Part shown: in pieces, positions 33,972-64,000 of the stretch
How the letters are laid out: each line of letters opens with the position of its first letter
Numbering within the stretch: position 1 is the first letter of the stretch
Notes under the pieces: generated by a model
What the model saw: the letters and a program-made list of their open reading frames with translations, nothing else
The model's database searches: none
Told to the model about the DNA's origin: nothing
Made by a program: the position numbers and the translations under genes
Origin: Odontesthes bonariensis
Taxonomy: Eukaryota; Chordata; Actinopteri; Atheriniformes; Atherinopsidae
Direction: 5' to 3'
Length of the DNA stretch: 64,000 nt
Assembly: GCF_027942865.1 (NCBI RefSeq)
Contig: NC_134509.1
Location: 8,942,754 to 9,006,753, forward strand

Positions 33972-33997
33972 GGGGGGGGGGGGGGGGGGGGGGGGGG
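33972..33997 (+). repeat. 26-base poly-G tract upstream of the CaMKII gene
   Basis: Uninterrupted G run about 640 bp upstream of the kinase start codon. Confidence 0.95.
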
Positions 33998-48127: not shown

Positions 48128-48303
48128 CTAAATAGCAGTGTTGTGCCAGTTCACAGCTTTTCTGAACTAGTTCAAGTTCAGTTCATACATGCTCAAAGTG
48201 AACAGTTCACGTTCAAAGTTCACAATTTTAATTCTGAACTAGTTCAAAGTTCAGTTCATTTTACTTTTTTCGTGAGATATTCAAATAAATACTTTTTTTC
48301 ACA

Positions 48304-48717
48304 CTACGAGCTAGAAATCACTATACGTTCTTTGAAACTGCTCATTGTAGACATTTGCTCATGACACTGCATTTGTGGGTTTCTTACCAGGTGATGAAAC
48401 TTGCAGCAGTACAGACAAGGTAGACCAGTTGGCTGTGTCATTTGCGTTTGGGGTTGGCAGGGGGTCTTTTTTCCCTTTCCTCCCTTATAACCCTCGAGGG
48501 CGTGCATATATGCATTCAACTGGATGGGATGTTTTAACTCAATGTGCCGTTTCAAATTCGAGAAGGACGTTGTTGATGTCCTAACTTGTTTTTGCTGCGC
48601 AGGTGGACATATCTTACACAGAAAAGTAAGATTTTTGCCGTCGGGGTCTTGGTTTGCAAGAGTGTAAAATTGTTTTAAATGTTCATAAGGAGAATCGGTG
48701 TCTGTCTCCGTGCCATC
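48304..48717 (-). pseudogene. hAT transposase remnant: BED-type zinc finger exon
   Basis: Minus-strand reading contains SPYEHLKQFYTLANQDP, then CKICPPAQQKQVRTSTTSFS and NLKRHIELKHP. This gives Cx2C and Hx4H of a BED finger, the DNA-binding N-terminus of many hAT transposases. A start codon near 48768 is separated from it by a 10-A run that puts it out of frame. No RNase H-like catalytic domain follows before the terminus at 48136, so this is an internally deleted copy. Confidence 0.75.
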
Positions 48718-48771
48718 ACTTCCACTAGCCTTTTTTTTTTTATTGCAACGCTTTCACTCACTCTCGTCATT

Positions 48772-48815
<44 letters not shown>
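48772..48815 (+). repeat. (CT)n microsatellite
   Basis: Over 20 CT units inside the outer hAT element, in the putative leader of its transposase. Confidence 0.95.
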
Positions 48816-48818
<3 letters not shown>

Positions 48819-49042
48819 CCTCCAGCCCTCCGCGCGCAATTCATCACGGGTAACGTCGTTCGGAAGCCAGTATGTTATTCAACTATTCTCAGCCGGACAC
48901 TACGTTGCCCGCAATGCATTGCGCACACAATGTCAAAACCATTTCTGTCTGGTGATACATGATTTAAGCGGCACCAGCGAGAATACAATGGAAGCAAATC
49001 GTAATCAAAATTCAAATTCAAATGCATTATCAGAAATGCTTT

Positions 49043-50225
49043 TGTAACCGATTCTTGCGTCACTCCACGGTGTTAGGACTGACCAAATAACCCCTTGACT
49101 CTGCGTTGTGTATTTTTAATGAAGACAAGGAGTTTCTGGACAGTGGACACTTTATTTCCTGCGTGGGAACATAAGTTTGCATCAGTGCAGTTGGTTTAGC
49201 TTCACACAGCACACTCTGACGCAGCTTTCACAGACTGGCCCAAATTACAGTAACAATATTCACAATGTACAATAAAGAAAATAATAATAAATGGTGTACC
49301 TGCGTGGGAACATAAGTTTGCATCAGTGCAGTTGGTTTAGCTTCACACAGCACACTGCAACAGAGCGTCACGTTAGCATTTAAGGCTGATTCATACTCGG
49401 CGCAACCTCGCTCATACTAGCTGGTCGCAAATGGCGCAAACGGTCACGTGTCCCAAAATTCCGCCACGCCCCCCTTCGCAAGCTAGAAAATCCTCGCGCG
49501 GCGCAAGGTCGCGCACACAACTTTTTTTCTGACTTCGCGCGCGCTCAACCGGAAACAGCTGACCAAGAAAAAGAAAAAATGAACACTGCAGAGACCGCGG
49601 TGACCGAGAGGATGCGCCTCTACAAACATCTGTACGACACGTCTATGAAGTTACACTGGGACAACGTTTGACAAAGTTCGTCTTGTTGCAAAGGACGAAC
49701 AATCCACCATCTCTTCTGTTTTTGCCGCAGCCGCTTAGCTCTGAGATACATATACAGTTCTACACCCAGAGTAAATTCATTCCGCATCAGATGTGCCAGC
49801 CTCTGCTGACGTGACACCACAGGTGGCATTGTGTATGCTTTCTTTGTATGCTTTTCAGCTTGTTTCCTCAACAGTGACGCTCGCTGGTCTGGAGAGAACT
49901 GCAAATGTGACGCATACTCGGCGCAAACTGCGCTTATGAGCTGAAGGAACTGTGAAGGGGCTGGCGCTTTCGATGACGTCATTAATGGTTCTCGAGCCAG
50001 AACAGTTGCGCGTTTGCGCCGAGTAAGAATCAGCCTTTAGCGTTAGCGTGTATCGTTCTATGCTCTGTGCTGAAAAACGCGACTCACCTCTGACGCAGCT
50101 TTCACAGACTGGCGCGGATTAACGGAGCCAGCAGCATATAACCAGCCACACCGAGAGGGGGCGCAACTTCCCCACTGTACCCATACACAAAGCAAGTGGA
50201 ACTCTACAACTTAAACCTTGTTACA
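49043..50225 (-). repeat. 3' LTR of the gypsy element, enlarged
   Basis: 1183 bp. The first 138 and last about 140 bases match the 5' LTR with two substitutions that I can count. The extra middle contains an imperfect tandem duplication (the segment from about 49157 recurs from 49299) and the Harbinger MITE at 49383-50036. Confidence 0.88.
49383..50036 (-). mobile_element. Harbinger-like MITE inside the 3' LTR
   Basis: Termini AGGCTGATTC.TACTCGGCGCAA are inverted over about 23 bp, with TTA duplicated on both sides (49380-49382, 50037-50039), as for PIF/Harbinger. A minus-strand frame (49620-49982, 120 codons) ends with LRAKRLRQKQKRWWIVRPL, similar to the start of Harbinger nuclease proteins. 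It is a partial transposase, so the copy is non-autonomous. Confidence 0.8.
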
Positions 50226-50234
50226 TTCCCCCCT
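50226..50234 (-). other. Polypurine tract of the gypsy element
   Basis: AGGGGGGAA on the coding strand directly abuts the 3' LTR, where plus-strand DNA synthesis would start. Confidence 0.8.
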
Positions 50235-50700
50235 GCTGAATTCCACTTGCACCCATAAAAAAAAATAAACAGGTACACCACTACAACCAGGAGAGAAACA
50301 GAGAACAAAAACACAAACATTATATACAGTTCCTAATAGCTCATCCACAGCTATCGAAATGTGATCATTCAGCTCAGCAATCCCAGACAGTACAGTTACA
50401 ATGAAATTCCAGTCAGAGGACTATTCACAAAAGAATCAGTATAAAAAGAAGTTGGCCAGACCCCTTCATCACACATGCGGGAAGCAAAAAAAATAAAAAT
50501 ATGCCCATTACATATTTCACTATATTGTAACTGTATGTCATTCTGATACAACTAAAGCACAACAAAAGCATTCTCACAGTTATGAAACTCCAATTTCCAT
50601 TTCAAACACTATAAAATTAACTTTTGCTCTACAGGACTCAAACCTTTACAGTCCTCTGGTGCATTATCTCAATCAATCTAGAGACAGGTTTAAGTAACCT
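50235..50700 (-). other. Gypsy stretch between integrase and the polypurine tract
   Basis: AT-rich, no envelope-like frame and no other coding signature. Confidence 0.6.
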
Positions 50701-52137
50701 TCACACCCTCGATCTAGCATGAGTCCGTCCCACCCCGTCAACAACAGATTGGTCTCCAGTGGGAGCATCGGTTTCAGGTGAGCCAAGAACCTTAACCAAA
50801 GGCAGACATTCTGTTTCACATTCAACGGGTCTCACGGACACGACCAGGTCGGACCGTTGATCATCACCGGGAGACTGTTCTGGTACATCAGAGTCAACCG
50901 TGGGGACACAATTAGAGGGCGGATGATCCTCCACAGTAGTGCCTTCCAGTTGAACACACTCAGTCATCAGCAACTCGTCGGACACCTCAGACTGTAAGTC
51001 AGAAACCCAAGCTCTTGTCCTGTAGTCAGCAGATGCCACAGACACATCACAGACAGCTTCTCCATCAACCATCAGCGAGCCAGAGTCAGCCGACACACTC
51101 CCTTCATCCTGAAATGAGTCATCCCCGAGGGGGAGAAAGTTCACTGGCATAATCAGGTTGCGGTGTACAACCTTCCTCTGTCCTGTGACAGCATTCTGCA
51201 GCTTAAAGGTGTGACTCGTGTCATTCTTGTCAACAACTGTGTAGACAACACTCTCCCAGCGATCGGCAAGTTTTCTTTTGCCACGCCCCTTTTTGTTGGC
51301 CAAAAGGACGCGGTCACCAACCTCCAGAGGGGATCCCCTAACTTTCTGGTTATAGAGATCTGTGTGGCGCTGCAACTGTCTACACGCCGTCTCTCGTGCA
51401 ATGTCTACAGCCTCCTTGAGGTCTTTCCTCAATGTCTGAACATATCGATCATAATCTGTGATGTCATGATGGTCAATGACTGAACCAAAGATTACATCAA
51501 TAGGGAGTCTCGGCACCCTGCCAAACATTAACAGAAATGGCGCATAGCCAGTTGTCTCATGGACGGTGCAGTTGTATGCAAACGTGAGGGCTTTCAGCAT
51601 ATCAGGCCACCTCTGCTTAGCTCTCGGGGGTAAAGCACGAATCATATTGCCCAAAGTGCGGTTCATCCTCTCACAGGACCCGTTTCCCATTGGGTGATAT
51701 GGAGTTGTATGGGACTTCTGGACACCAGCAACACTTAACAGTTCTGAAATTAGCGTGCTCTCAAAATTTGCTCCCTGATCAGAGTGCAATCGTGTGGGAA
51801 AGCCGTAGATGCAAAAGTAATTATGCCACAGTTGGTGCGCCACTGCCTTGGCAGACTGATTGGGGCATAAAAAGGCATGTGCCATCTTTGTAAAGTGGTC
51901 AGTTACCACAAGCACATCCACTGATTTGTTTGCAGAGTCTTCCGCCGACCAAAAGTCGATGCAAACCAGTTCAAGGGGCTCAGACGTCTTGATGTTCCCC
52001 AATGGTGCTCTGGCCTCCGGCTCAGGCGACTTGCTAATAACGCATCGCTTGCAGCAGTGCACATACTCTGCCACCTGTTTAGCCATGCCAGGCCAGTGAA
52101 ATCTTTCCCGGGCAAGATAAAGGGTTCTTCGTTGGCC
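50701..52137 (-). pseudogene. Gypsy pol: integrase catalytic core and C-terminus
   Basis: Same frame as the preceding segment, after the nonsense codon. It shows CCKRC of the zinc module and the DDE triad: LVCIDFWS, RLHSDQGANF and GNGSCERMNRTL. A long acidic C-terminal tail follows. No chromodomain is visible. It ends about 470 bp before the 3' LTR. Confidence 0.83.
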
Positions 52138-53100
52138 TTAGTGACCCGCTTCATCATGAACCCCCTTCAGAACAGCAGAGCGTAGGGCCGGTGGAACAAC
52201 ATACAGGTAGGTTTTAGCCTTTGTTACCGGATTCTTAGAGACTCTATACAGTACACCATTTTTCACAGTCAACTTGGTCCATATTCTCAGAAGTCTCTTT
52301 GTATCAGCTGCATCATTAGCTCGCTCTCTCCTCGACGGTCTCCGGCCCCTGTCCACATAGAAGATCACCCTACACAGGGCATCATTAGACCGCTGCTGCC
52401 TCCCTAGCTCTTCATGTGATAAGATTTCAGAATCAGATTGATTTGACGTGAACACAGTCTGGGAGAACTGAGGCAAGAGGAGAGCATGTGGCCACACCTT
52501 GGACTCATGTTCTGTATGAACTTGGAAGACAGCTCCCACCTCAGAAGATGTCATTCCCCCAGCCTGCACAACAGCTGTGCACTGAGAAATACTAGGCTGG
52601 TCATTGTCTGGGGTCTTATCATCTGAGTGAACAGTCCATCTGAAGGCCTCCTGTACTCCACCCGTGGCAACTGCCTCTGCCTCAGCCAGAAGATCATGAT
52701 AAGGCACTCTTATCAAGCGATGGGAGGCACTGGGCTGCACAAAGGGTTCCCTACTCAATGCATCAGCAACTACATTCTTAGGACCAGGAATATATTTTAT
52801 GTCAAACTGGAAGGGTGCTAGCTTTGCAATCCACCTCTGCTCGCATGCGTCCAATCTTGGCTTAGACAGTATGTAAGTCAGAGGGTTATTATCTGTCCAA
52901 GCTGTAAACGGATGACCCCTCAACCAATGATGAAACTTATCACACACCGCCCACTTCAACGCAAAGAACTCCAGCCTATGTGCTGGATACTTGGACTGTG
53001 CGTGACTGAGTGTCTTACTGGCAAAGGCGACTGGCCTAGATAGAAGCCCCAGCAGGAACTTGAGACAGCACTGCACCAAGGCCACTGCTGGAAGCATCAA
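52138..53100 (-). pseudogene. Gypsy pol: RNase H and integrase N-terminus
   Basis: It contains RPVAFASKTLSHAQSKYPAH, the RNase H Asp in FTAWTDNNPLTYIL, and the connection to integrase. It ends inside the integrase zinc-binding HHCC module after the Hx4H pair (HDEAGH), where an in-frame TAA (52138-52140) truncates it. Confidence 0.82.
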
Positions 53101-54010
53101 CAGATAGAAGGAAGGGCTCCTGAAAGTTTGGATGAGTCAGGAGCACTCGATCCAACAACGACTGCTTCAACTCATAAAAAGCTGTCCTGCATTCATCTGT
53201 CCAATCCTCCTCACACAGCTTTGTACGCACCAGCCGGCACCTTCTCTTTGGACCACGAGGACCTTTATCCCCAGATGTTAGCCGGAACAGAGGTCTCGCA
53301 ATAGATGAACAGTTCTGAATGAATTGTTGGTAGAACATCACCATTCCCAGAAATGAGCGTACTCTCTTTTGGGATGGAACACTTGAACCTTCTTCCATGA
53401 GGTCTGATTCCGTAAGGGATGTAATGGATGCTATTTTGTCAGGGTCTGACCTTATTCCTTCAGCATCAATGATGTGCCCCAGGAATTTCACGGACCGCCT
53501 CAGGAAGTGGCACTTCTTTGGCGCCAACTTGAGATTGTGAGTCTGCAATCTCTGGAAAACCATATGCAAGCGCTGCAGTGCCACTTCTTCTGTGGGGGCA
53601 AAAACCAGGACATCGTCAAGATAACACAGCACACTAAGGAAGTTCTGATCTCCAAAAATGCCCAACATCATCCTCATAAAGGTGGCCGGACTGTTGCATA
53701 ATCCTTGTGGCATACGATTGTACTCGTATAAACCAAACGGTGACGTAAATGCTGTGTACTTACGATCCTGCTCATGCACCTCCACATTGTAATAGCCTGA
53801 AGTCAGATCCATTGTCGAGAAAAATCCGTTTCCTCCTAAAGCAGCCAGCGCATCGGCCGGATGCGGAAGAGGGTGAGCATCTTTGACAGTTCTAGCGTTA
53901 AGCCAGCGAAAGTCATTACAAATTCTTAAATCACCAGTCCTTTTCCAAACCAAGACCAATGGTGATGCAAACTCACTGCAAGACTTTCGAATTATTTCAC
54001 GTTCCTCCAT
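53036..54010 (-). pseudogene. Gypsy pol: reverse transcriptase and start of RNase H
   Basis: Clear RT fingers and palm: SPLVLVWKRTGDLRICNDFR, LDVTSGYY-like FSTMDLTSGYYNVEV, MPQGLCNSPATF, and the catalytic YLDD in VLCYLDDVLVF. It ends in the first RNase H motif VDASSSGLGAVLS, where the frame is lost near 53050. Confidence 0.85.
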
Positions 54011-54015
54011 TTCAT

Positions 54016-54606
54016 TCAGAGCCTGTCATAATGAGTTGGTGGCATACGTCGGCATGGTAACCGGAATGGCTTGTCATCCACCACTCGAATCCGATGGAGA
54101 CAGCCTTTAGCCTTGCCGCAATCTAGCTTGTCTCTCGTGAAAATGGACTTGAACTGAGCTATGAGGTTGACCAGATGCTCTTTGCTAGCTGTTGACACTT
54201 CACATGAGTCGATATCAATATCAGACAGCCTCAGATCTTGCTGCACTGCATGTAAAGAGCTACTGCCACCTGTCACTTGCTGTGAAGATGGATGATCTGG
54301 CAGAGTAGAGACATCAGTGACAAGACTCTGCTCATCATGGCACTGTGCCAAGTCAGTCGGCAGTTTTTACAGGGAGCCACCCCTCACTGTTCAGATGTGC
54401 CACTGTTCTCCCGACCATAACTGATCTTAGCCCTGACCTTGCTGCTGTGGGTTCTATTACTACAGTACTGCCCACTTCCTCACTATTTACTAGCTGCAGT
54501 CGGCCCCAAACCAGGTGCTCAGTCAAAGGCTCTAAGGTGATGGCTCTCTTTATCTTGACAGTTCCAATCTTATCACCACCACTCTCTGGAACCGCCACTT
54601 TCGACA
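54016..54606 (-). pseudogene. Gypsy pol: protease-RT linker and start of RT, frame-shifted
   Basis: Two frames (54353-54607 and 54016-54351) cover the spacer. The second ends with the RT N-terminal segment KPFRLPCRRMPPTHYDRL. Frame changes occur near 54355 and again near 54013. Confidence 0.65.
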
Positions 54607-55197
54607 TTAAAAACTGTGTACATTTTTATCAGCCATATCCTCAGCATTCAAAGTTTTGCTGCATTTCTTCCCCAAATCACCTTTTCCCTTAAGGTGATCA
54701 ACCAAATGCCTCATAAGGTTGCTGCCCACAATAAGGTCCTCACCCTGTCCTGCAACCACTAGCATAGGCACAACAACTTTGCAGCCATACATCTCCACTG
54801 TAACATCACACACACCTGTTGGAATGGTTCTTGAACCACCACAACCAATCAGGACGACGTCAGTGGGTTGCAAGGTGGGAGTCTGCAATACTGCATGATG
54901 TAACAGCTGTGGCATCAGATTGGTGCTGAGAGTACAGGCCATGGAGCCACTATCAAGCATTGCTTTAACAGAAACTTTGCCACCTAGAGTCACATTTTCA
55001 TAGAACAGTTCGTCATGCTGTTTTAATCTGTGGGTGTTCTGAAGTACTGGTCGACGTCCTAACTGTCGTTCCTCACAAACGGTGTGGTATATAGACTCCA
55101 AGTCATCAAAATCAGTCTCTTCAGGGGCAACTTCAGGCCTAACACTTGCCCCCTCCACATGTAGGCCAACTAGTTTCCCAGCTGCTGGGCAGCTGAT
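54607..55197 (-). pseudogene. Gypsy pol: aspartic protease segment
   Basis: Opens in the -1 frame of gag. It contains the retropepsin active-site motif LDSGSMACTLS (Asp-Ser-Gly) and a flap-like IGCGGSRTIPTG, then LIVGSNLM. The frame closes at 54607 and the following polyprotein segment continues in another frame, so a frameshift has occurred near 54610. Confidence 0.8.
55124..55179 (-). promoter_or_regulatory. Programmed -1 ribosomal frameshift signal (gag to pol)
   Basis: The slippery heptamer G GGA AAC (55179-55173) sits in the gag frame directly before the TAG stop (55172-55170). After a 5-base spacer, GGCCTA (55167-55162) pairs with TAGGCC (55141-55136). The loop sequence GGGGCAA (55152-55146) pairs with TTGCCCC (55130-55124) further on, forming an H-type pseudoknot. 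The pol frame is the -1 frame and is open from 55197. Confidence 0.85.
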
Positions 55198-56501
55198 TCA
55201 CATCCCCCCCTTCTGGTAGATAGTGCCCTGGGACACCGAGCCCGTGTGTGGTCAGCAGCATAGCAGATGAAGCATAGCTGATTGACCCTACAGTGGTAAT
55301 AGGTGGAGTGTTCAGTGTCACTGCAGATTGCACAAGGCATTACTTTGTGTGTTTGAGGCCGATTACCTCTGACATCATCTTTAGCAGGTAGCTTTACTTG
55401 TTGAGATTGGCCCTCCAGAACTTTCTCTAACAGGGCTATCACATGATCAAGACGATCAGCAGGCACTTGTGCATTAATTCCAACAGATGGTACTGAGGTA
55501 GAGGTCTGTAATGGTGCTGTACATTTACTACTGGATGTCACTTGTTGCACACGAGGACTCACCTCCTGTTGCTGAGAACTCAAGGCACTGAATGCATTAA
55601 GCTGAGAGCCGCACTTCTGAACTTTGCTATGCTCCAGCAACTTCTCGTACACGTCAGCAGCTGTCCACTGTTGCAGAGGTTTGCACTTGAAAATAAGAGA
55701 CAGTTCTGAGTCTGGGCAGTGACGAATGAACATTGCAGTCAGTTCTTTTGTCAGGTATGCAAAGGACTTATTCTGTCTCTTGAGGCAGTCTTCTGTCAGG
55801 TCCATGGCTCTGTTCAACCGCAGCCAGTAATCAAAAGGGGTCTCACCTAAGTTAGGCAATGTTGCGTAAAAGTCAGCTAAAGGCATGTCTGAACAAGCAG
55901 TGTCACTAAAGTGTTGTTTCAGGATTTCAAAAATAGGCTCTGGGCTCACCTTAAGACATACGGATGGCTTACTACGTATGCCCACCCTGACTATCTCTTG
56001 CGCCCTCCCCGCCAGTTTACCAAGCACTTCATCAGCTTGTTCAGCTACTGGTACCCCCTTTCTTTTCAAATAGGTCATCATCATTTCTTCCCATTCTTGA
56101 ACACTGCATGTATCACAGCCATCCCCTCTAAAACACACAGGCTCTTTAACATCAGATTTCACAATCACATTCAACAGTGAAGGTTCTGAGAGCACATTAC
56201 TGGGAGACCCAATTCCACAGCCTAAACGAGACTGAATGCAAGAGGCAATGCTTTCACCAATAGAAAATCCTATTTGTGTTGCTATCTCTGCATAAAGGCT
56301 CTCTGTAGTAGGTTCGGTGTCTGATTTGGGATGATATGAATCATCACATCCCCCATCAACAGGTCCCTCATGTAACTCAGCAAAGGCGGCCCCAGGCGGG
56401 AATGAGAGTGGAGCTATCAGCCTTCCTCCCCTACCCCTGCCGAGTGAATGCAGTGGGGAAACGTTCCCTCTCCCCCTGCCAAAACTGGGAAAATCTGCCA
56501 T
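55170..56501 (-). CDS. Gypsy gag polyprotein
   Basis: 443 intact codons. The N-terminus is Gly/Arg rich (FGRGRG, LGRGRGGR). The middle is a capsid-like region with CFRGDGCDTCSVQEWEEMMM and later helical stretches. Near the C-terminus lies one CCHC zinc knuckle CFICYAADHTRARC for RNA binding, preceded by another Cys/His cluster. The frame ends CAG CTG GGA AAC TAG, and the last seven sense bases form a -1 slippery site. It is the only long undamaged frame of the element. Confidence 0.88.
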   Translation of the reverse strand: MADFPSFGRGRGNVSPLHSLGRGRGGRLIAPLSFPPGAAFAELHEGPVDGGCDDSYHPKSDTEPTTESLYAEIATQIGFSIGESIASCIQSRLGCGIGSPSNVLSEPSLLNVIVKSDVKEPVCFRGDGCDTCSVQEWEEMMMTYLKRKGVPVAEQADEVLGKLAGRAQEIVRVGIRSKPSVCLKVSPEPIFEILKQHFSDTACSDMPLADFYATLPNLGETPFDYWLRLNRAMDLTEDCLKRQNKSFAYLTKELTAMFIRHCPDSELSLIFKCKPLQQWTAADVYEKLLEHSKVQKCGSQLNAFSALSSQQQEVSPRVQQVTSSSKCTAPLQTSTSVPSVGINAQVPADRLDHVIALLEKVLEGQSQQVKLPAKDDVRGNRPQTHKVMPCAICSDTEHSTYYHCRVNQLCFICYAADHTRARCPRALSTRRGGCESAAQQLGN

Positions 56502-56965
56502 GACTGAGCAGTTCTTGTTGCTTTACCTTCTTTTTTTTTTTTTTTTAGTTGTCCAAAACAGTAAATTCAATGTGTAAAGAAAGAAAATATTTCAAATGGA
56601 ATATTCAGCAAAATCTCAAATAAAGGAATCCCAGAAAATAAAACAAAATCAGCAGTAGATCCAAATAAGAAAAAAAAACAGCAAAGCACAATGGATGGGG
56701 GAAGTACTCCAGAAACACACATCAAAGCAATGCTGCAAAATGGCTAAAAACACCACTGGAATGTTGCTACTGCTTCTGTTAAAGAATGAGGGGAGTATTT
56801 TCCTTTTCCCCTTTTTCAGTAAAAGTACAGAATCCCACCTCAATGTCCCAAGGGAAACAGCAAATGGCGGAAAGGAGGGAAATCCCCCAAGGACACAGTC
56901 CACGTGGCGACCTCCACCACTGTCCAGGAATTAGACGGCCCCACCACAGATACAGGATCGCAGAA
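56502..56965 (-). other. Gypsy untranslated leader
   Basis: Stretch between the primer site and the gag start codon. No coding signature was found; it would hold the packaging region. Confidence 0.5.
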
Positions 56966-56983
56966 GCTCGGATCACGGCACCA
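56966..56983 (-). other. tRNA primer-binding site of the gypsy element
   Basis: One base after the 5' LTR the coding strand reads TGGTGCCGTGATCC. TGG is the complement of a tRNA 3' CCA. I cannot name the tRNA with confidence. Confidence 0.65.
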
Positions 56984-56984
56984 A

Positions 56985-57283
56985 TGTAACCGATTCTTGC
57001 GTCACTCCACGGTGTTAGGACAGACCAAATAACCCCTTGACTCTGCGTTGTGTATTTTTAATGAAGACAAGGAGTTTCTGGACAGTGGACACTTTATTTC
57101 CTGCGTGGGAACATAAGTTTGCATCAGTGCACTCACGCGACTCACCTCTGACGCAGCTTTCACAGAGTGGCGCGGATTAACGGAGCCAGCAGCATATAAC
57201 CAGCCACACCGAGAGGGGGCGCAACTTCCCCACTGTACCCATACACAAAGCAAGTGGAACTCTACAACTTAAACCTTGTTACA
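56985..57283 (-). repeat. 5' LTR of the gypsy element
   Basis: 299 bp with termini TGTAAC/GTTACA. Relative to the other LTR it lacks the 49181-50084 segment. Confidence 0.9.
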
Positions 57284-57770
57284 CTTTTTCATTTTAAGAA
57301 TGTGGCTGTATTATTTGACTCATAAATAAAATTACTAATCAATCATCCTATTTGCATTTCAATTTTCTTCTTCAAGACTGCTCATTCTTTCACTTAATTC
57401 AAATGAAAAGGACAAAGACATTTGAAATTTAATTTTCAAAATATGCCTCAGCAAATAGATACCAAAATTCAATTTGAAATGTAAAAGTTGAAAATTCAAA
57501 TGCATTATCAGAAATGCTTTTTCATTTTAAGAATGTGGCTGCATTATTTGACTCATAAATAAAATTACTAATCAATCATCCTATTTGCATTTCAATTTTC
57601 TTCTTCAAGACTGCTCATTCTTTCACTTAATTCAAATGAAAAGGACAAAGACATTTGAAATTTAATTTTCAAAATATGCCTCAGCAAATAGATACCAAAA
57701 TTCAATTTGAAATGTAAAAGTTGAAAATTCAAATGCATTATCAGAAATGCTTTTTCATTTTAAGAATGTG
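57284..57770 (+). repeat. Tandem 233-bp repeat in the left arm
   Basis: Two complete 233-bp copies starting CTTTTTCATTTTAAG at 57284 and 57517, and a third partial copy from 57750. The right arm has one copy fewer (about 62735-63010). Confidence 0.88.
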
Positions 57771-57968
57771 GCTGCATTATTTGACTCATAAATAAAATGA
57801 CTAATCAATCATCCTATTGCATTTCAATTTTCTTCTTCAAGACTGCACATTCTATGCCATAATCAAAAAGAAAACAAAGCGAACATTGCTTTTTCGTTTT
57901 CGTGGTCTGCATGCAAAATACTGCCCACAATTCGATAATGAAAAAGCAATCTGAGCGGCGCAGGAGAG

Positions 57969-57976
57969 TGACGTCA
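57969..57976 (+). promoter_or_regulatory. Perfect CRE palindrome in the left arm
   Basis: TGACGTCA in a GC-rich patch. The same site is at 62549-62556 in the right arm. It may be part of a promoter of the P-like element. Confidence 0.4.
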
Positions 57977-58410
57977 CGCCTGCTGACCGTGCTACCCATC
58001 ATGTAGGCTACGGTAGGGGGCGGTGTGCATATTTGCTGTACAGTTAGCTGCCCAGGTGGAGTCAAACAATATATCCGATTCTGATGCCCGTGACCGGGTT
58101 GAACGGGTCACAGAGAGCTTGGCTGCATACTCTGCCGTCACAGATTCAGAGGTTGGTGCAGCAAGGGCTTGCGCGCCGAGGCCGCGGCCACGACCAGCCA
58201 TGACTTTCTGGCCGCGGCCATTACTGAGGGAGCAGCCATTAATGAGGCTGAGACAGACGTTGCGAACAGGAGTCGGGGGATTACCTTTCACAGGTAGGAT
58301 TCAACATTATTATTGGTTGTATTTTGTCAATAGAATATTATTGTACTGTATTTGTGTCTGCCGGCGAAATCGTAGCCAGCAAACGTTAAACTAGGATATG
58401 TTTATAGCCG

Positions 58411-59134
58411 GTGTTATGCCGAGAAGTGCACCCCCTGCTGGTCGTACTTTAAGGAGAGTCTGTGATGGAGTGATATTGTTAAGAAATGTTAAAGAAAGCG
58501 CCTTTACTCATGTGTTTATAGGCAATACTTTTATTTTGAAGGAAGTTTTCTCCCGGAAGTGATGTGTGTTAGTAACCCCGGGAAAATTGTTGTAACCTGT
58601 CTTGTGTTCAGCGAATAAAGCAATGAATGATAAAACTTGAACTTGCTGCAAAGATTGAGTATCCTTAACAGATATGATATAACTACATCATAATTTGTTT
58701 ACCTAATTGAATTAACGGATGCAAATCTCAATAAGTCCAAATTTGTATATAAAATTAAAATAACCAAATTTCATAGTTTCAGGTTCATTTTTATATCATT
58801 TCATCTGGGCTATAATGAGTTGAGATTGTTAATAGAAAATGTATCCAACCGTCTTTCGTGTTGACTACAAAAGTATTAGTCACGGCCCTTACTTTTGAAT
58901 ATATGTCCAATAATATAAAAATAGTTAGGAATAGGAATACTCTAAACTCTACAATTGTCGGATTATCATAATTGTACACGTATTATTAATTTACATGAAG
59001 AGATGTGAAAAAAGATGCACGAATGAAACACCATTGTCAGCTCAATATTATTTTTTTGGGATAAATGTAATAATCCACACCTGAAACGGTTTACGCGCGC
59101 TCCGTGAATGGGAATGCACTTCTCGGCATAACAC
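58411..59134. repeat. Inner inverted pair within the left arm
   Basis: GTGTTATGCCGAGAAGTGCA at 58411-58430 and its exact complement at 59115-59134 frame a segment, as a transposon would. The mirror copy is at 61589-62114. No flanking duplication was found. Confidence 0.55.
58477..58670 (+). mobile_element. Solo LTR inside the left arm
   Basis: 194 bp starting TGTTAAG and ending CTTAACA, containing AATAAA, with a perfect 5-bp duplication GATAT on both sides (58472-58476, 58671-58675). The right arm reads straight through the corresponding site with a single GATAT, which proves the insertion. Confidence 0.88.
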
Positions 59135-59518
59135 CTCTGTTCACACGGCTATTAGGCCAACGGAGACTTCATAAATCATATATTCCATAACACAGGCTTA
59201 GATTACAACTAACACAAGAATGCTACTTTTGAAATAATGCAAATATTACTGTTATAACATTGACCATCAGATTTTACTCAGGTTTATTAATGACGTTTAT
59301 TATGCCTGTATTATTCACATGTAATTCTTTCATCCTAACAAAAGTATTTACCTCATGTCTCATACCCACCCCTCAGATTGTCCGACCGAGAGTTGGTGTT
59401 ATTCCCTCCATCTTGGGCTTACAGGTTCACCTAATAAGAGTAGGTGTATCATCATAAGGCTATTAGCATTCAAAATTGAAATATTATCAATAACAGGGCG
59501 GGGTGAAATACTTATCCC

Positions 59519-59537
59519 TGTGTGTGTGTGTGTGTGT
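59519..59537 (+). repeat. (TG)n microsatellite, left arm
   Basis: Mirrored by (AC)n at 61186-61202 in the right arm. Confidence 0.85.
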
Positions 59538-59672
59538 ATTTTTATATATTTTAATATTATGCTTCTTCATTTTAGCCAGAAAAGGGCAGGACTACATGTT
59601 CTTCCAGAAAAGCTGAAGAGAGCCTGTCTGTGACCACTCAGGATGACAGCAAGGGCTCGCGCATTTTCTGGC

Positions 59673-59697
59673 GGGGGGGGGGGGGGGGGGGGGGGGG
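59673..59697 (+). repeat. 25-base poly-G tract at the arm-spacer junction
   Basis: Uninterrupted G run 26 bp beyond the end of the left arm. Confidence 0.95.
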
Positions 59698-60445
59698 TAC
59701 ACACTAGGGCCAGAACACCAACTACAGGTACCATACATTAACAGCAGAATGACAGTGTGTGATAGACTGGTCAGTAGGCTATATTTATAAGACACCGATG
59801 CCCGTTGTCAGCTGCCGCTGTTTTGGCAGCTCGAGCCTTGTCGTAATTTTGTACTTTGGAACGGATGGAATGAGAATCCAGCTTTGTTATATACATATGT
59901 ATGTGTATATATATATTTCTAGTGTAAGGTAGAGGATGTTTGTTTTGTATGTGTATTTATTTGACGATTGCCTATGGTGCCTACGAATGAATGAGTACGT
60001 ATGTATACACACTGCTTGAAGATCATTCAAGCTGTTGACCTAACGAATTTTCCAATCATGTACTACAAGCTTTGTATCATTGAAGAGGAATAAAGACACT
60101 ATACAGCTGTTGTGATTTTTATGTAACATCTTTATCAAATCTGTAATAAAGTATTTCACAAGGCCAAAACAATGTAAGAAAATATCTTTGATTTTTGCTT
60201 TTTTGGCTTCACAGCATAACTTTGTTATGACCATGACCATAGCATCAAGGTTCAAGGTGCAATGTTTTTTAAATTGCCAATTGTGCATGAACCGCAGTCA
60301 AGACACATGCATTACTTGTTCAGGGATCTCTCTGAGTTAGTCTAGAAAAATAGAAATACTATAATAAAATATAAAGAATATAAAAAACACTGTACAAGAA
60401 GGTAGTTGTATATACACAAGTTTTAATATTTTGAATGGTATCAAC

Positions 60446-60985
60446 CTAAAGCAAAACAAAATGAGCTAAAAGCCCTGAAAGAGGAGTGTTTTGCAGAGCT
60501 TCTGTCTCATGCTCCCTTTTATGCAGGTCAAGAGAGGTCAGTTTGCCAATGTGGTGGAGCCTTATTTTCAGAAACACAGACACAAACAATGACAACAAGT
60601 TGGAATAATGGTTGTTGATGCCAAACTTTGTCTCCTCAATGTGTTCCCCAAGCTGAAAAACATCCTCCGTTCTCCTCCCGGATGATGTACGTGACTGTCG
60701 CCGTCTTTACAGCTTTGCTGAAGCTTGGCGAATCACCCACTCTGCAGCTCTCAGCACCTTCACTGTGCCACATGATGGAATCACTAGTACACCGTTGTTT
60801 TTCAGGGCTAGAAAGTGGTAGCTATCATGAAATGATGAAGGTACAGCATCTCTGACCAAGCTTGCATGGCACACACCACAGGACAGCTTTTGCAGAATCT
60901 GGAGGACTACAAACCCTGCGATGTAGTACAAAGCATTGTCCACAACATCCACCAGTATAAATATTGAGAAGTAGCTATTTAACAT
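60446..60985 (-). pseudogene. P/THAP9-type transposase, C-terminal remnant
   Basis: The minus-strand frame contains VVDNALYYIAGFVVLQILQK, LSCGVCHASLV, FLALKNNGVLVIPSCGTVKV and AAEWVIRQ. This is the order of motifs at the C-terminus of P-element/THAP9 transposases (YIAGFVV, paired Cys, LKNNGGL-like). A TAA (60707-60709) interrupts it. The same frame stays open beyond that and continues with LLSLFVSVFLKIRLHHIGKL, a further family-like segment, to TAG at 60446. The THAP finger and catalytic core are absent from the window. Confidence 0.7.
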
Positions 60986-61074
60986 ATTTAGAACGGTAAT
61001 TTTGATATGATGTTTAAAAAAGAAATACTCAAATCATTAGGCTGAGTTAGTGAGTTTGAGGTTGAAGCTTCTGG

Positions 61075-63059
61075 GTCATCCTGAGTGGTCACAGACAGGC
61101 TCTCTTCAGCTTTTCTGGAAGAACATGTAGTCCTGCCCTTTTCTGGCTAAAATGAAGAAGCATAATATTAAAATATATAAAAATACACACACACACACAC
61201 ACAGGGATAAGTATTTCACCCCGCCCTGTTATTGATAATATTTCAATTTATGAATGCTAATAGCCTTATGATGATACACCTACTCTTATTAGGTGAACCT
61301 GTAAGCCCAAGATGGAGGGAATAACACCAACTCTCGGTCGGACAATCTGAGGGGTGGGTATGAGACATGAGGTAAATACTTTTGTTAGGATGAAAGAATT
61401 ACATGTGAATAATACAGGCATAATAAACGTCATTAATAAACCTGAGTAAAATCTGATGGTCAATGTTATAACAGTAATATTTGCATTATTTCAAAAGTAG
61501 CATTCTTGTGTTAGTTGTAATCTAAGCCTGTGTTATGGAATATATGATTTATGAAGTTTCCGTTGGCCTAATAGCCGTGTGAACAGAGGTGTTATGCCGA
61601 GAAGTGCATTCCCATTCACGGAGCGCGCGTAAACCGTTTCAGGTGTGGATTATTACATTTATCCAAAAAAAATAATATTGAGCTGACAATGGTGTTTCAT
61701 TCGTGCATCTTTTTTTCACATCTCTTCATGTAAATTAATAATACGTGTACAATTATGATAATCCGACAATTGTAGAGTTTAGAGTATTCCTATTCCTAAC
61801 TATTTTTATAATATTGGACATATATTCAAAAGTAAGGGCCGTGACTAATACTTTTGTAGTCAACACGAAAGACGGTTGGATACATTTTCTATTAACAATC
61901 TCAACTCATTATAGCCCAGATGAAATGATATAAAAATGAACCTGAAACTATGAAATTTGGTTATTTTAATTTTATATACAAATTTGGACTTGTTGAGATT
62001 TGCATCCGTTACTTCAATTAGGTAAACAAATTATGATGTAGTTATATCATATCATTCCATCACAGACTCTCCTTAAAGTACGACCAGCAGGGGGTGCACT
62101 TCTCGGCATAACACCGGCTATAAACATATCCTAGTTTAACGTTTGCTGGCTACGATTTCGCCGGCAGACACAAATACAGTACAATAATATTCTATTGACA
62201 AATTACAACCAATAATAATGTTGAATCCTACCTGTGAAAGGTAATCCCCCGACTCCTGTTCGCAACGTCTGTCTCAGCCTCATTAATGGCTGCTCCCTCA
62301 GTAATGGCCGCGGCCAGAAAGTCATGGCCGGTCGTGGCCGCGGCCTCGGCGCGCAAGCCCTTGCTGCACTAACCTCTGAATGTGTGACGGCAGAGTATGC
62401 AGCCAAGCTCTCTGTGACCCGTTCAACCCGGTCACGGGCATCAGAATCGGATATATTGTTTGACTCCACCTGGGCAGCTAACTGTACAGCAAATATGCAC
62501 ACCGCCCCCTACCGTAGCCTACATGATGGGTAGCACGGTCAGCAGGCGTGACGTCACTCTCCTGCGCCGCTCAGATTGCTTTTTCGTTATCGAATTGTGG
62601 GCAGTATTTTGCATGCAGACCACGAAAACGAAAAAGCAATGTCCGCTTTGTTTTCTTTTTGATTATGGCATAGAATGTGCAGTCTTGAAGAAGAAAATTG
62701 AAATGCAATAGGATGATTGATTAGTCATTTTATTTATGAGTCAAATAATGCAGCCACATTCTTAAAATGAAAAAGCATTTCTGATAATGCATTTGAATTT
62801 TCAACTTTTACATTTCAAATTGAATTTTGGTATCTATTTGCTGAGGCATATTTTGAAAATTAAATTTCAAATGTCTTTGTCCTTTTCATTTGAATTAAGT
62901 GAAAGAATGAGCAGTCTTGAAGAAGAAAATTGAAATGCAAATAGGATGATTGATTAGTAATTTCATTTATGAGTCAAATAATGCAGCCACATTCTTAAAA
63001 TGAAAAAGCATTTCTGATAATGCATTTGAATTTGAATTTTGATCACGATTTGCTTCCAT
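61075..63059 (-). repeat. Right arm of the giant palindrome
   Basis: 1985 bp, nearly identical to the left arm in reverse orientation. It is uninterrupted and so preserves the empty sites of the gypsy element and of the solo LTR. Confidence 0.88.
62549..62556 (-). promoter_or_regulatory. Perfect CRE palindrome in the right arm
   Basis: Mirror copy of the left-arm TGACGTCA, followed on the minus strand by a GC-rich patch. Confidence 0.4.
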
Positions 63060-63313
63060 AGAATACAGGAGGGAGGAATTTCTCTCGTTGCTTTTCAAAA
63101 GAGAAAACAGATGTCACTCAGTTTTCAATGGAAAACAAATTCCAACGTTCATTTACAGTGATGTCTGCCGTTCATGACACATAATGTGAACTCATTCACG
63201 TTCAAGTTCTTTATTAAAAAACGTGTTGCGTTCAGTTCAACGTTCGCGAAAAAATGAGCGTGTTCAATGAACGCGTTCTTTTGAACTCGTTCACGCACAA
63301 CACTGCTAAATAG

Positions 63314-64000
63314 CCTAAATATATGTTCAACTCATTTTTATCATTCTCTGGTCTGGAGTCGAGCAGGTCCAGCAGATTTAGAGAACTTTTTATCCACAAT
63401 AATTACATAACCGTTGCATGATGCAATCAGTTTACTTATTGATGTAAATCACCAAGAGTAAATTCTCTATGTAATAAAATTTTGTTTGGAAAACACATTT
63501 AAGCTCTTCCTTTCATACCACAGCCCAGTCAGAGAAAAACGGTACTCTTGGCCAGTGAGATATGCAGAGCCCACATGTGCTGCAAACTGCTGCAAACTGC
63601 TGCAAACTAATTTATTGTTAACAAGTTGCGAGTGTCCCCTGCATTGGGGCCTCTCAGAAGACAACAGAACAAAAATTCAAATTAAAGCGATACAATGTAA
63701 CTTCTCAAAAAGCCCACTATGGAGCTCCCCCTACAGGCTTGGAGGTAATGTACGGTTACACTGTCGTAAATACAACACCCTTTTGCTTTCACGTTTCACG
63801 TTTGTTTACGAACCGGCGAGGAGTCAGAAGGTGCAAGCTATGTCGACCGAGAAGGTAAGAGTAATCAAATGTACCTGGGAGCGTGAGAGGGGTCTATTTG
63901 TTTTTGCAGTAGGTGTGCCAGAAAGCAAGTCGAAGTACTTCCGCTTAGCTCCCGGGCCGGTCCAGCAAAGTTACATTGCGCAGTTTTTCCAACTCAGACC
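63314..64000 (+). other. Flank beyond the transposon nest
   Basis: Ordinary AT-rich DNA with a three-unit GCTGCAAACT repeat at 63577-63607. Near the edge, ATGTCGACCGAGAAG is followed by GTAAGAG (63839-63860), which could be a tiny first coding exon, but nothing confirms it. Confidence 0.4.

Follow-up and report, generated by a model that had tools for sequence, protein, structure and literature searches.

A four-deep transposon nest in Odontesthes bonariensis and its palindromic DNA transposon family with apparent IS3EU-type ends and a P-type transposase relic

The stretch analysed here, hereafter the window, comprises 64,000 nucleotides (nt) of the Odontesthes bonariensis genome (contig NC_134509.1, here C4, positions 8942754-9006753) and contains a nest of transposable elements. 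From the start of the outer left target duplication to the end of the outer right one, the nest spans 15.2 kb (48128-63313). It is composed of a hAT element, a palindromic element within it, a Ty3/gypsy element, a miniature inverted-repeat transposable element (MITE) in one of the gypsy long terminal repeats (LTRs), and a solo LTR. All five target duplications were read directly at the boundaries given below. While an earlier note, made from the sequence alone, had described five layers, the solo LTR and the gypsy element sit side by side in the palindrome, and the nesting depth is therefore four (hAT, palindrome, gypsy, MITE). Target duplications usually measure 8 bp for hAT, 4 bp for Ty3/gypsy, 5 bp for Ty1/copia and 3 bp for Harbinger-type elements, and each of these layers carries a duplication of the length typical for its kind. 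The nest differs from ordinary nested insertions in its depth and clean boundaries, and in nothing more. The genome searched consists of 945 Mb in 187 contigs, and for queries with many candidates the figures refer to the best 40 scored candidates of each longer list. In protein comparisons, the transposon proteins of the window resembled those of ray-finned fishes, with the best-scoring integrase match 76% identical. No Rfam match was obtained for the window at gathering thresholds.

The outermost layer is a hAT element on the minus strand (48136-63305), recognised by its duplication, its ends and its sibling copies. Its 8-bp target duplication CTAAATAG was read directly at 48128-48135 and 63306-63313, and this length together with the short terminal inverted repeat (TIR) CAGTGTTGTGC fits hAT. 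Without cargo, the element is 1,090 nt long. A query with its left part returned 40 matches at 96-100% identity (best 40 of 251 candidates). Of eight fetched loci, one was that of the window; the joined hAT sequence from which the palindrome had been removed aligned over its full length to all seven others (7-52 gap columns). The siblings carry duplications of different sequence, perfect over 8 bp in five of the seven, with 7 of 8 bases matching in one and mismatched in register in another. A minus-strand frame at 48304-48753 has the look of a BED finger by eye only, and Pfam detected neither a BED nor a hAT domain in the 149-amino-acid hAT frame (E<=1).

Inside the hAT element lies the palindromic element (48988-63059), which measures 5,628 nt without the gypsy element and the solo LTR and has the consensus ends TATGGAAGC..GCTTCCATA. 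Two arms of about 2 kb flank a centre of 1.4 kb. The left arm (57284-59650, plus strand, with its outer 55 nt at 48988-49042) contains the solo LTR and an additional 233-bp tandem unit; the right arm (61072-63059, minus strand, 1,988 nt) differs from it by 13 mismatches in 1,964 aligned nt. The target of the palindrome in hAT, GCGAGAATACAGGAGG, is unbroken in the three siblings read at this site, and the other four align across it. We found 42 matches to the arm (best 40 of 382 candidates), among which 13 inverted pairs were counted by eye, and 45 matches to the centre (best 40 of 149 candidates). Exact palindrome TIR ends occur 129 times genome-wide, versus 0 in the control.

The architecture of the palindrome varies among its copies. 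In two of them (L013, L019) the arms absorb centre sequence, and in two others (L002, L007) the centres are short. Six of six older copies tested lack about 754 nt from one arm, where they show a junction; the other arm retains this stretch in four of the six, and it was not seen in the remaining two. We considered the stretch as a nested element and rejected this, as it has no visible TIR and resembles a microhomology deletion. The 233-bp tandem unit (57284-57853) is repeated about 2.5 times in the left arm and less often in the right, and unit number varies among siblings. Each arm also contains an imperfect 26-bp inverted pair (GGTGTTATGCCGAGAAGTGCA.., at 58410-58435/59110-59135 and 61588-61613/62090-62115), which is possibly an older nested element with no visible duplication. 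Runs of 25-26 G occur in the palindrome centre (59673-59697) and at 33972-33997.

The third layer is a Ty3/gypsy element on the minus strand with broken frames (49043-57283), flanked by the duplication CTTT (49039-49042/57284-57287). Pfam identified reverse transcriptase (E 1.3e-33), RNase H (9.7e-18) and integrase (2.2e-12), with a weak protease match under its cut-off (E 2.8e-4). LTRs are present, and the order protease, reverse transcriptase, RNase H, integrase is that of Ty3/gypsy, with the protease weak. In three sibling elements, matched up by position, the duplications are TCTG, TAGG and TAAA, as read by eye. The joined gypsy site is 165/168 identical to the opposite arm, and the site is unbroken in 11 of the 12 sibling fragments tested; the twelfth lacks the search string.

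The left (3') LTR of the gypsy element (49043-50225, minus strand) comprises 526 nt plus the fourth layer, a MITE of 654 nt, and the TTA of the latter. The MITE (49383-50036, TIR AGGCTGATTC) is flanked by TTA at 49380-49382 and 50037-50039. It thus has the 3-bp TWA duplication and the TIR that characterise PIF/Harbinger, and we call it Harbinger-type on the basis of the TTA duplication and such ends, which we take to be the mark of this group. No Pfam match was found for its 138-amino-acid frame. Full-length matches elsewhere are 98-100% identical (best 40 of 773 candidates), and on contig C17 (4088387-4089681) two oppositely oriented copies are adjacent, with a 3-nt overlap. The MITE-free LTR of 526 nt was covered by all seven other fetched LTR copies, six of them gap-free. 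The right (5') LTR (56985-57283, minus strand) measures 299 nt; compared with the 526 nt of the other copies, 230 nt are gone and 3 nt have been added, a net loss of 227 nt. Because other LTR copies show 526 nt, it is the right LTR that suffered a deletion. Insertion of the MITE into an LTR that matched the right one was rejected, since the right LTR lacks 230 nt of the left one in addition to the MITE. Of the sites that the two LTRs share, 2 of 296 differ, and the palindrome arms differ at 0.66%; both pairs look young. These differences are no clock, however, because the arms can convert each other.

Beside the gypsy element, in the same palindrome arm, lies the solo LTR (58477-58670, 194 nt, TGTTAAG..CTTAACA) with the duplication GATAT (58472-58476/58671-58675). 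The opposite arm contains no solo LTR and a single GATAT. There are seven genome matches to this LTR, that of the window included. On contig C2, a pair of similar LTRs 4.4 kb apart is flanked by the duplication GGTAG (by eye) and encloses a copia-type reverse transcriptase (RVT_2, E 1e-62), and we assign the solo LTR to Ty1/copia from this sequence relationship. It is a sister of the gypsy layer rather than a further layer, and the relative order of the two is unset. The earlier note had named the hAT element with its duplication, the Ty3/gypsy element with CTTT, the Harbinger MITE with TTA in the gypsy LTR and the solo LTR with GATAT, and all four hold at the boundaries described here, the type of the MITE by its TTA and ends only.

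Can these duplications be trusted? The earlier note had itself stated that chance recurrence of the duplications throughout the locus would refute its interpretation. Within the 15.2 kb, 2,257 distinct 8-mers are repeated, compared with a mean of 1,680 in 20 shuffles, and since 8-mers recur so often, letter matches alone are insufficient as proof. Yet CTAAATAG is present at the two outer boundaries and nowhere else in the window, and chance duplications are ruled out by uninterrupted sites, seen either in siblings or in the other arm of the palindrome, for the palindrome itself, the gypsy element, the MITE and the solo LTR. The exception is the outer hAT: a joined 251-nt query gave one match to the left flank, two to the right flank and none to the joined site, so that the search for empty sites suggested in the earlier note succeeded for four of the five insertions in this genome. 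The other check it proposed, a search for copies of each layer, yielded sibling copies for every layer and thereby the family membership of each.

Containment gives the relative insertion order within each element and no dates at the locus. The claim that the order of events can be read without dating is therefore correct in part: the gypsy element and the solo LTR stay unordered, and earlier cargo of the outer elements is invisible. In principle, the outer layers could have been already loaded with cargo at their last move, in which case layering would say nothing about the order of arrival here. Such composite movement is compatible with containment alone, as the inner insertions are tied to their elements and not to the host site. 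We nevertheless regard it as improbable, because the palindrome is lacking in all seven fetched hAT siblings and a palindrome arm stands beside solo-LTR sequence at only one of six fetched loci, the window's own, both sets being samples of larger families.

We consider it probable that five recent transposition events of an ordinary kind, stacked to a depth of four layers, account for the locus, and that they involve a palindrome family with IS3EU-type ends and a P relic. A deleted hAT element would first have entered host DNA, followed by the insertion of a 5.6-kb palindromic, non-autonomous DNA transposon into the hAT. A Ty3/gypsy and, separately, a Ty1/copia element would have inserted into the left palindrome arm, with the copia element afterwards reduced to a solo LTR, presumably by LTR-LTR recombination. 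The Harbinger-type MITE would then have entered one gypsy LTR, and a deletion would have hit the other. The absolute order and the age of these insertions are what we infer; missing from the genome search, and weighing against this account, is an empty allele for the outer hAT. The family of every layer has copies at 96-100% identity elsewhere in the genome, and recent nests are for this reason expected. The five clean duplications, which had been called unusual, are ordinary for a genome rich in young families. What is new here is not the nest but the palindromic family. The nest serves as a clean worked example: with empty sites available in the palindrome arms and in sibling copies, all insertions except the outermost can be checked within a single genome.

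The target duplication of the palindrome needs closer attention. At the window locus it reads as the 8-bp AGAATACA (48980-48987/63060-63067), as the earlier note had reported, because an A flanks GAATAC (48981-48986/63061-63066) on both sides. The left palindrome end has an A instead of the consensus terminal T, and at the right the terminal A is base 63060. From this locus alone the duplication is undecidable. We therefore turned to the family and read both ends in 34 copies: 14 including the window, beside which there were eight entries with one end only and one copy that was dropped as it had no recognisable end, and 20 others. These 20 were selected from 28 further pairs that we had paired from 100 listed exact end matches; they were selected for exact ends and hence are no random sample. 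A perfect 6-bp duplication beside TATGG..CCATA-type ends was found in 21 of the 34 copies, window included (9/14 and 12/20), and a perfect 7-bp duplication in two (1/14 and 1/20). When left and right flanks of different copies were paired as a control, none of 380 pairs gave a perfect 6-mer. T precedes ATGG in 15/17 ends and A follows CCAT in 19/19.

The family thus points to 6 bp, and the palindrome duplication in the window is most likely GAATAC and not AGAATACA, judging from the sequences of its relatives. The boundary and the 8-bp match reported earlier are present; the 8-bp, P-type length is unsupported by the family. Several observations speak against a 6-bp duplication. The 8-bp reading is equally good at the window locus alone (8/8), where the left end starts with A rather than T. 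Beside the two copies with a perfect 7-bp duplication, 11 of the 34 have neither 6 nor 7 bp, two of these with mirrored flanks, and in one copy on contig C16 an 8-bp repeat, CCAGGAGT, was read by eye at some distance from the ends. In one batch of ten fetched copies, three had both ends, six had one end and one had none, and only the three are among the 14. As a caution, a duplication read in a single copy can be too long and can lead, as here, to the wrong superfamily.

To which superfamily does the palindrome then belong? In fungi, IS3EU elements are described as having a 6-bp duplication, ends of the form TAYGG..CCRTA and TIRs of more than 30 bp (PMC12730594); another source gives TA..TA ends and usually a 6-bp duplication (PMC10045372), and IS3EU is among the transposons listed for zebrafish (PMC4746887). 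The palindrome family shares the 6-bp duplications, the TIRs of more than 30 bp and the TAYGG..CCRTA-type ends, apart from the window's left end with its initial A. It differs in its arms of about 2 kb and in its sole coding relic, which is of P type. This relic lies in the palindrome centre (60480-60970, minus strand) and represents the C-terminal part of a P-type (THAP9) transposase with a stop codon. Among 123 candidate proteins, 37 matched it at E<=1e-3 and all 37 carry PF22824, the THAP9 C-terminal domain. Pfam THAP9_C itself scored E 0.0067 on the relic, under its cut-off, and no PDB match was obtained. The six best matches show 67-74% identity, and those among them that bear a name come from fish.

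These matches, together with the architecture described below, would also suit a true P-superfamily element, that is, a vertebrate counterpart of the Drosophila element Galileo with 6- to 7-bp duplications and TATGG ends, in which the relic is the remnant of its own transposase. We compared relic positions with exact TIR ends, counting as checkable those on contigs with a complete list of exact ends (the test covered exact ends on contigs other than C23-C29). The stop-free part of the relic gave 103 genome matches, 75 of which entered the test. Among the first 59 (at least 89% identity), 47 were checkable and 36 of these had an exact TIR end no farther than 10 kb away, as a family-owned transposase would also predict. 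Among the next 16 (15 at 64-72%, one at 96%), in contrast, 14 were checkable and none was near an exact end. Likewise, none of the 31 checkable P GTP-binding-domain matches (39 in total) lay within 20 kb of one, and thus no complete P transposase was seen in the family. A fuller transposase at C13:23.13 Mb, hinted at by a frame of 232 amino acids, turned out to be arm sequence upstream of the relic. The similarity of related P elements on contig C2 (L092, L093) peters out with no recognisable terminus.

The ends bear on the same question. The zebrafish P element Pdre2, to which the relic is related through its P-type (THAP9) kinship, is reported to have the 13-bp TIR CATACCTGTCAAC and 8-bp duplications (PMC10983969), unlike the palindrome, whose ends fit IS3EU as described for fungi (PMC12730594). 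Neither the 8 bp of P elements nor the 7-8 bp of Galileo was found as the prevailing duplication of the family. We therefore hold membership of the P superfamily to be a real but rather unlikely alternative, and the simplest reading of these sequences is an element with IS3EU-type ends and captured P-transposase cargo. The description 'P-like' thus suits the relic and not the ends. The family, defined by the ends TATGGAAGC..GCTTCCATA, mostly 6-bp duplications, 233-bp tandem repeats in arms of about 2 kb and a P-relic centre, would be moved in trans by an IS3EU-type transposase recognising its ends, the P relic being captured cargo. Speaking against this, the only coding relic in the family is P-type, and no search aimed at an IS3EU transposase was made.

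In architecture, the palindrome resembles Galileo, a member of the P superfamily in Drosophila for which duplications of 7-8 bp are reported (PMC4168063). Like Galileo as described in PMC4168063 and PMC2775673, it has long foldback-like arms with tandem repeats inside them, its arms vary in length and absorb the centre, and other transposons are nested in it. This likeness, including the extension of the arms, favours a P-superfamily origin. In contrast to Galileo, the palindrome has mostly 6-bp duplications and TATGG..CCATA ends and resides in a fish genome. Galileo has produced inversions (PMC4168063, PMC2775673), while for the palindrome a role in rearrangement is only suggested. No palindromic IS3EU or P element from fish was recognised in a limited body of literature, consisting of titles and the beginnings of abstracts.

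Such a role is suggested by the surroundings of the nest. Its right end and flank (63034-64000) recur in inverted orientation 226 kb away on C4, as a 27-nt palindrome end (9233061-9233087) and a stretch of 933 nt (9232121-9233053). The right flank with hAT end and duplication is covered there over 933/933 nt at almost 100% identity, and the exact palindrome end at 9233061 has the same spacing as in the window, with the 7 nt between the two matches unread. No second copy was found there of the left flank, the solo LTR, the left part of the hAT or the inner right arm (for the last two, among the best 40 candidates), and for this reason the inverted block probably starts inside the outer right arm, between 61801 and 63034. 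Its far end seems to fall between 64000 and about 73,950, because a 66-nt probe 10 kb past the window is single-copy. Mirrored flanks were also found in two of the 14 palindrome copies, over 580/614 columns at C13:30.49 Mb and 150/150 nt at C4:34.47 Mb. At these loci (L063, C13:30486700-30492900; L088/L007, C4:34472150-34476770) inverted-repeat flanks replace target duplications, and on one side of each palindrome another exact end motif is found 2.0-2.4 kb farther out.

Assembling near-identical arms is difficult, and part of this structure could be an assembly artefact in which palindrome arms and inverted copies were collapsed or turned back. The almost 100% identical copy of the right end 226 kb away would fit such an error, as would the mirrored flanks at C4:34.47 Mb, which are identical over the 150 nt read. 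However, the target duplications are clean, the arms differ at 13 of 1,964 sites, the palindromic arrangement was found at 13 places (by eye) and between the two mirrored flanks at C13:30.49 Mb there are 34 differences in 614 columns. We consider an artefact very improbable.

Recombination between copies of Galileo is described as the cause of an inversion, and where breaks are staggered, duplications can remain next to an inversion (PMC2775673). In cod, hAT MITEs are reported to accumulate at inversion breakpoints (PMC12368964). By analogy, a link between the palindrome and inverted duplications is possible. As a tentative suggestion, which we think more doubtful than not, the fish palindromic family with its IS3EU ends and captured P DNA might act in a Galileo-like manner: its long arms would give rise to inversions and inverted duplications, and the nest would hold a copy at one boundary of a recent inverted rearrangement of 226 kb. 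Should inverted duplications indeed originate from the arms, Galileo would have a parallel among vertebrates, and the making of inversions by transposons could be tested directly on this family.

Two further repeats were noted in the window. At its right edge (63663-64000) lies an abundant repeat, with copies 96-98% identical (best 40 of 2,002 candidates). Upstream of the nest, an inverted repeat of about 255 nt with 92% identity (41995-42247/42419-42673) is perhaps another MITE.

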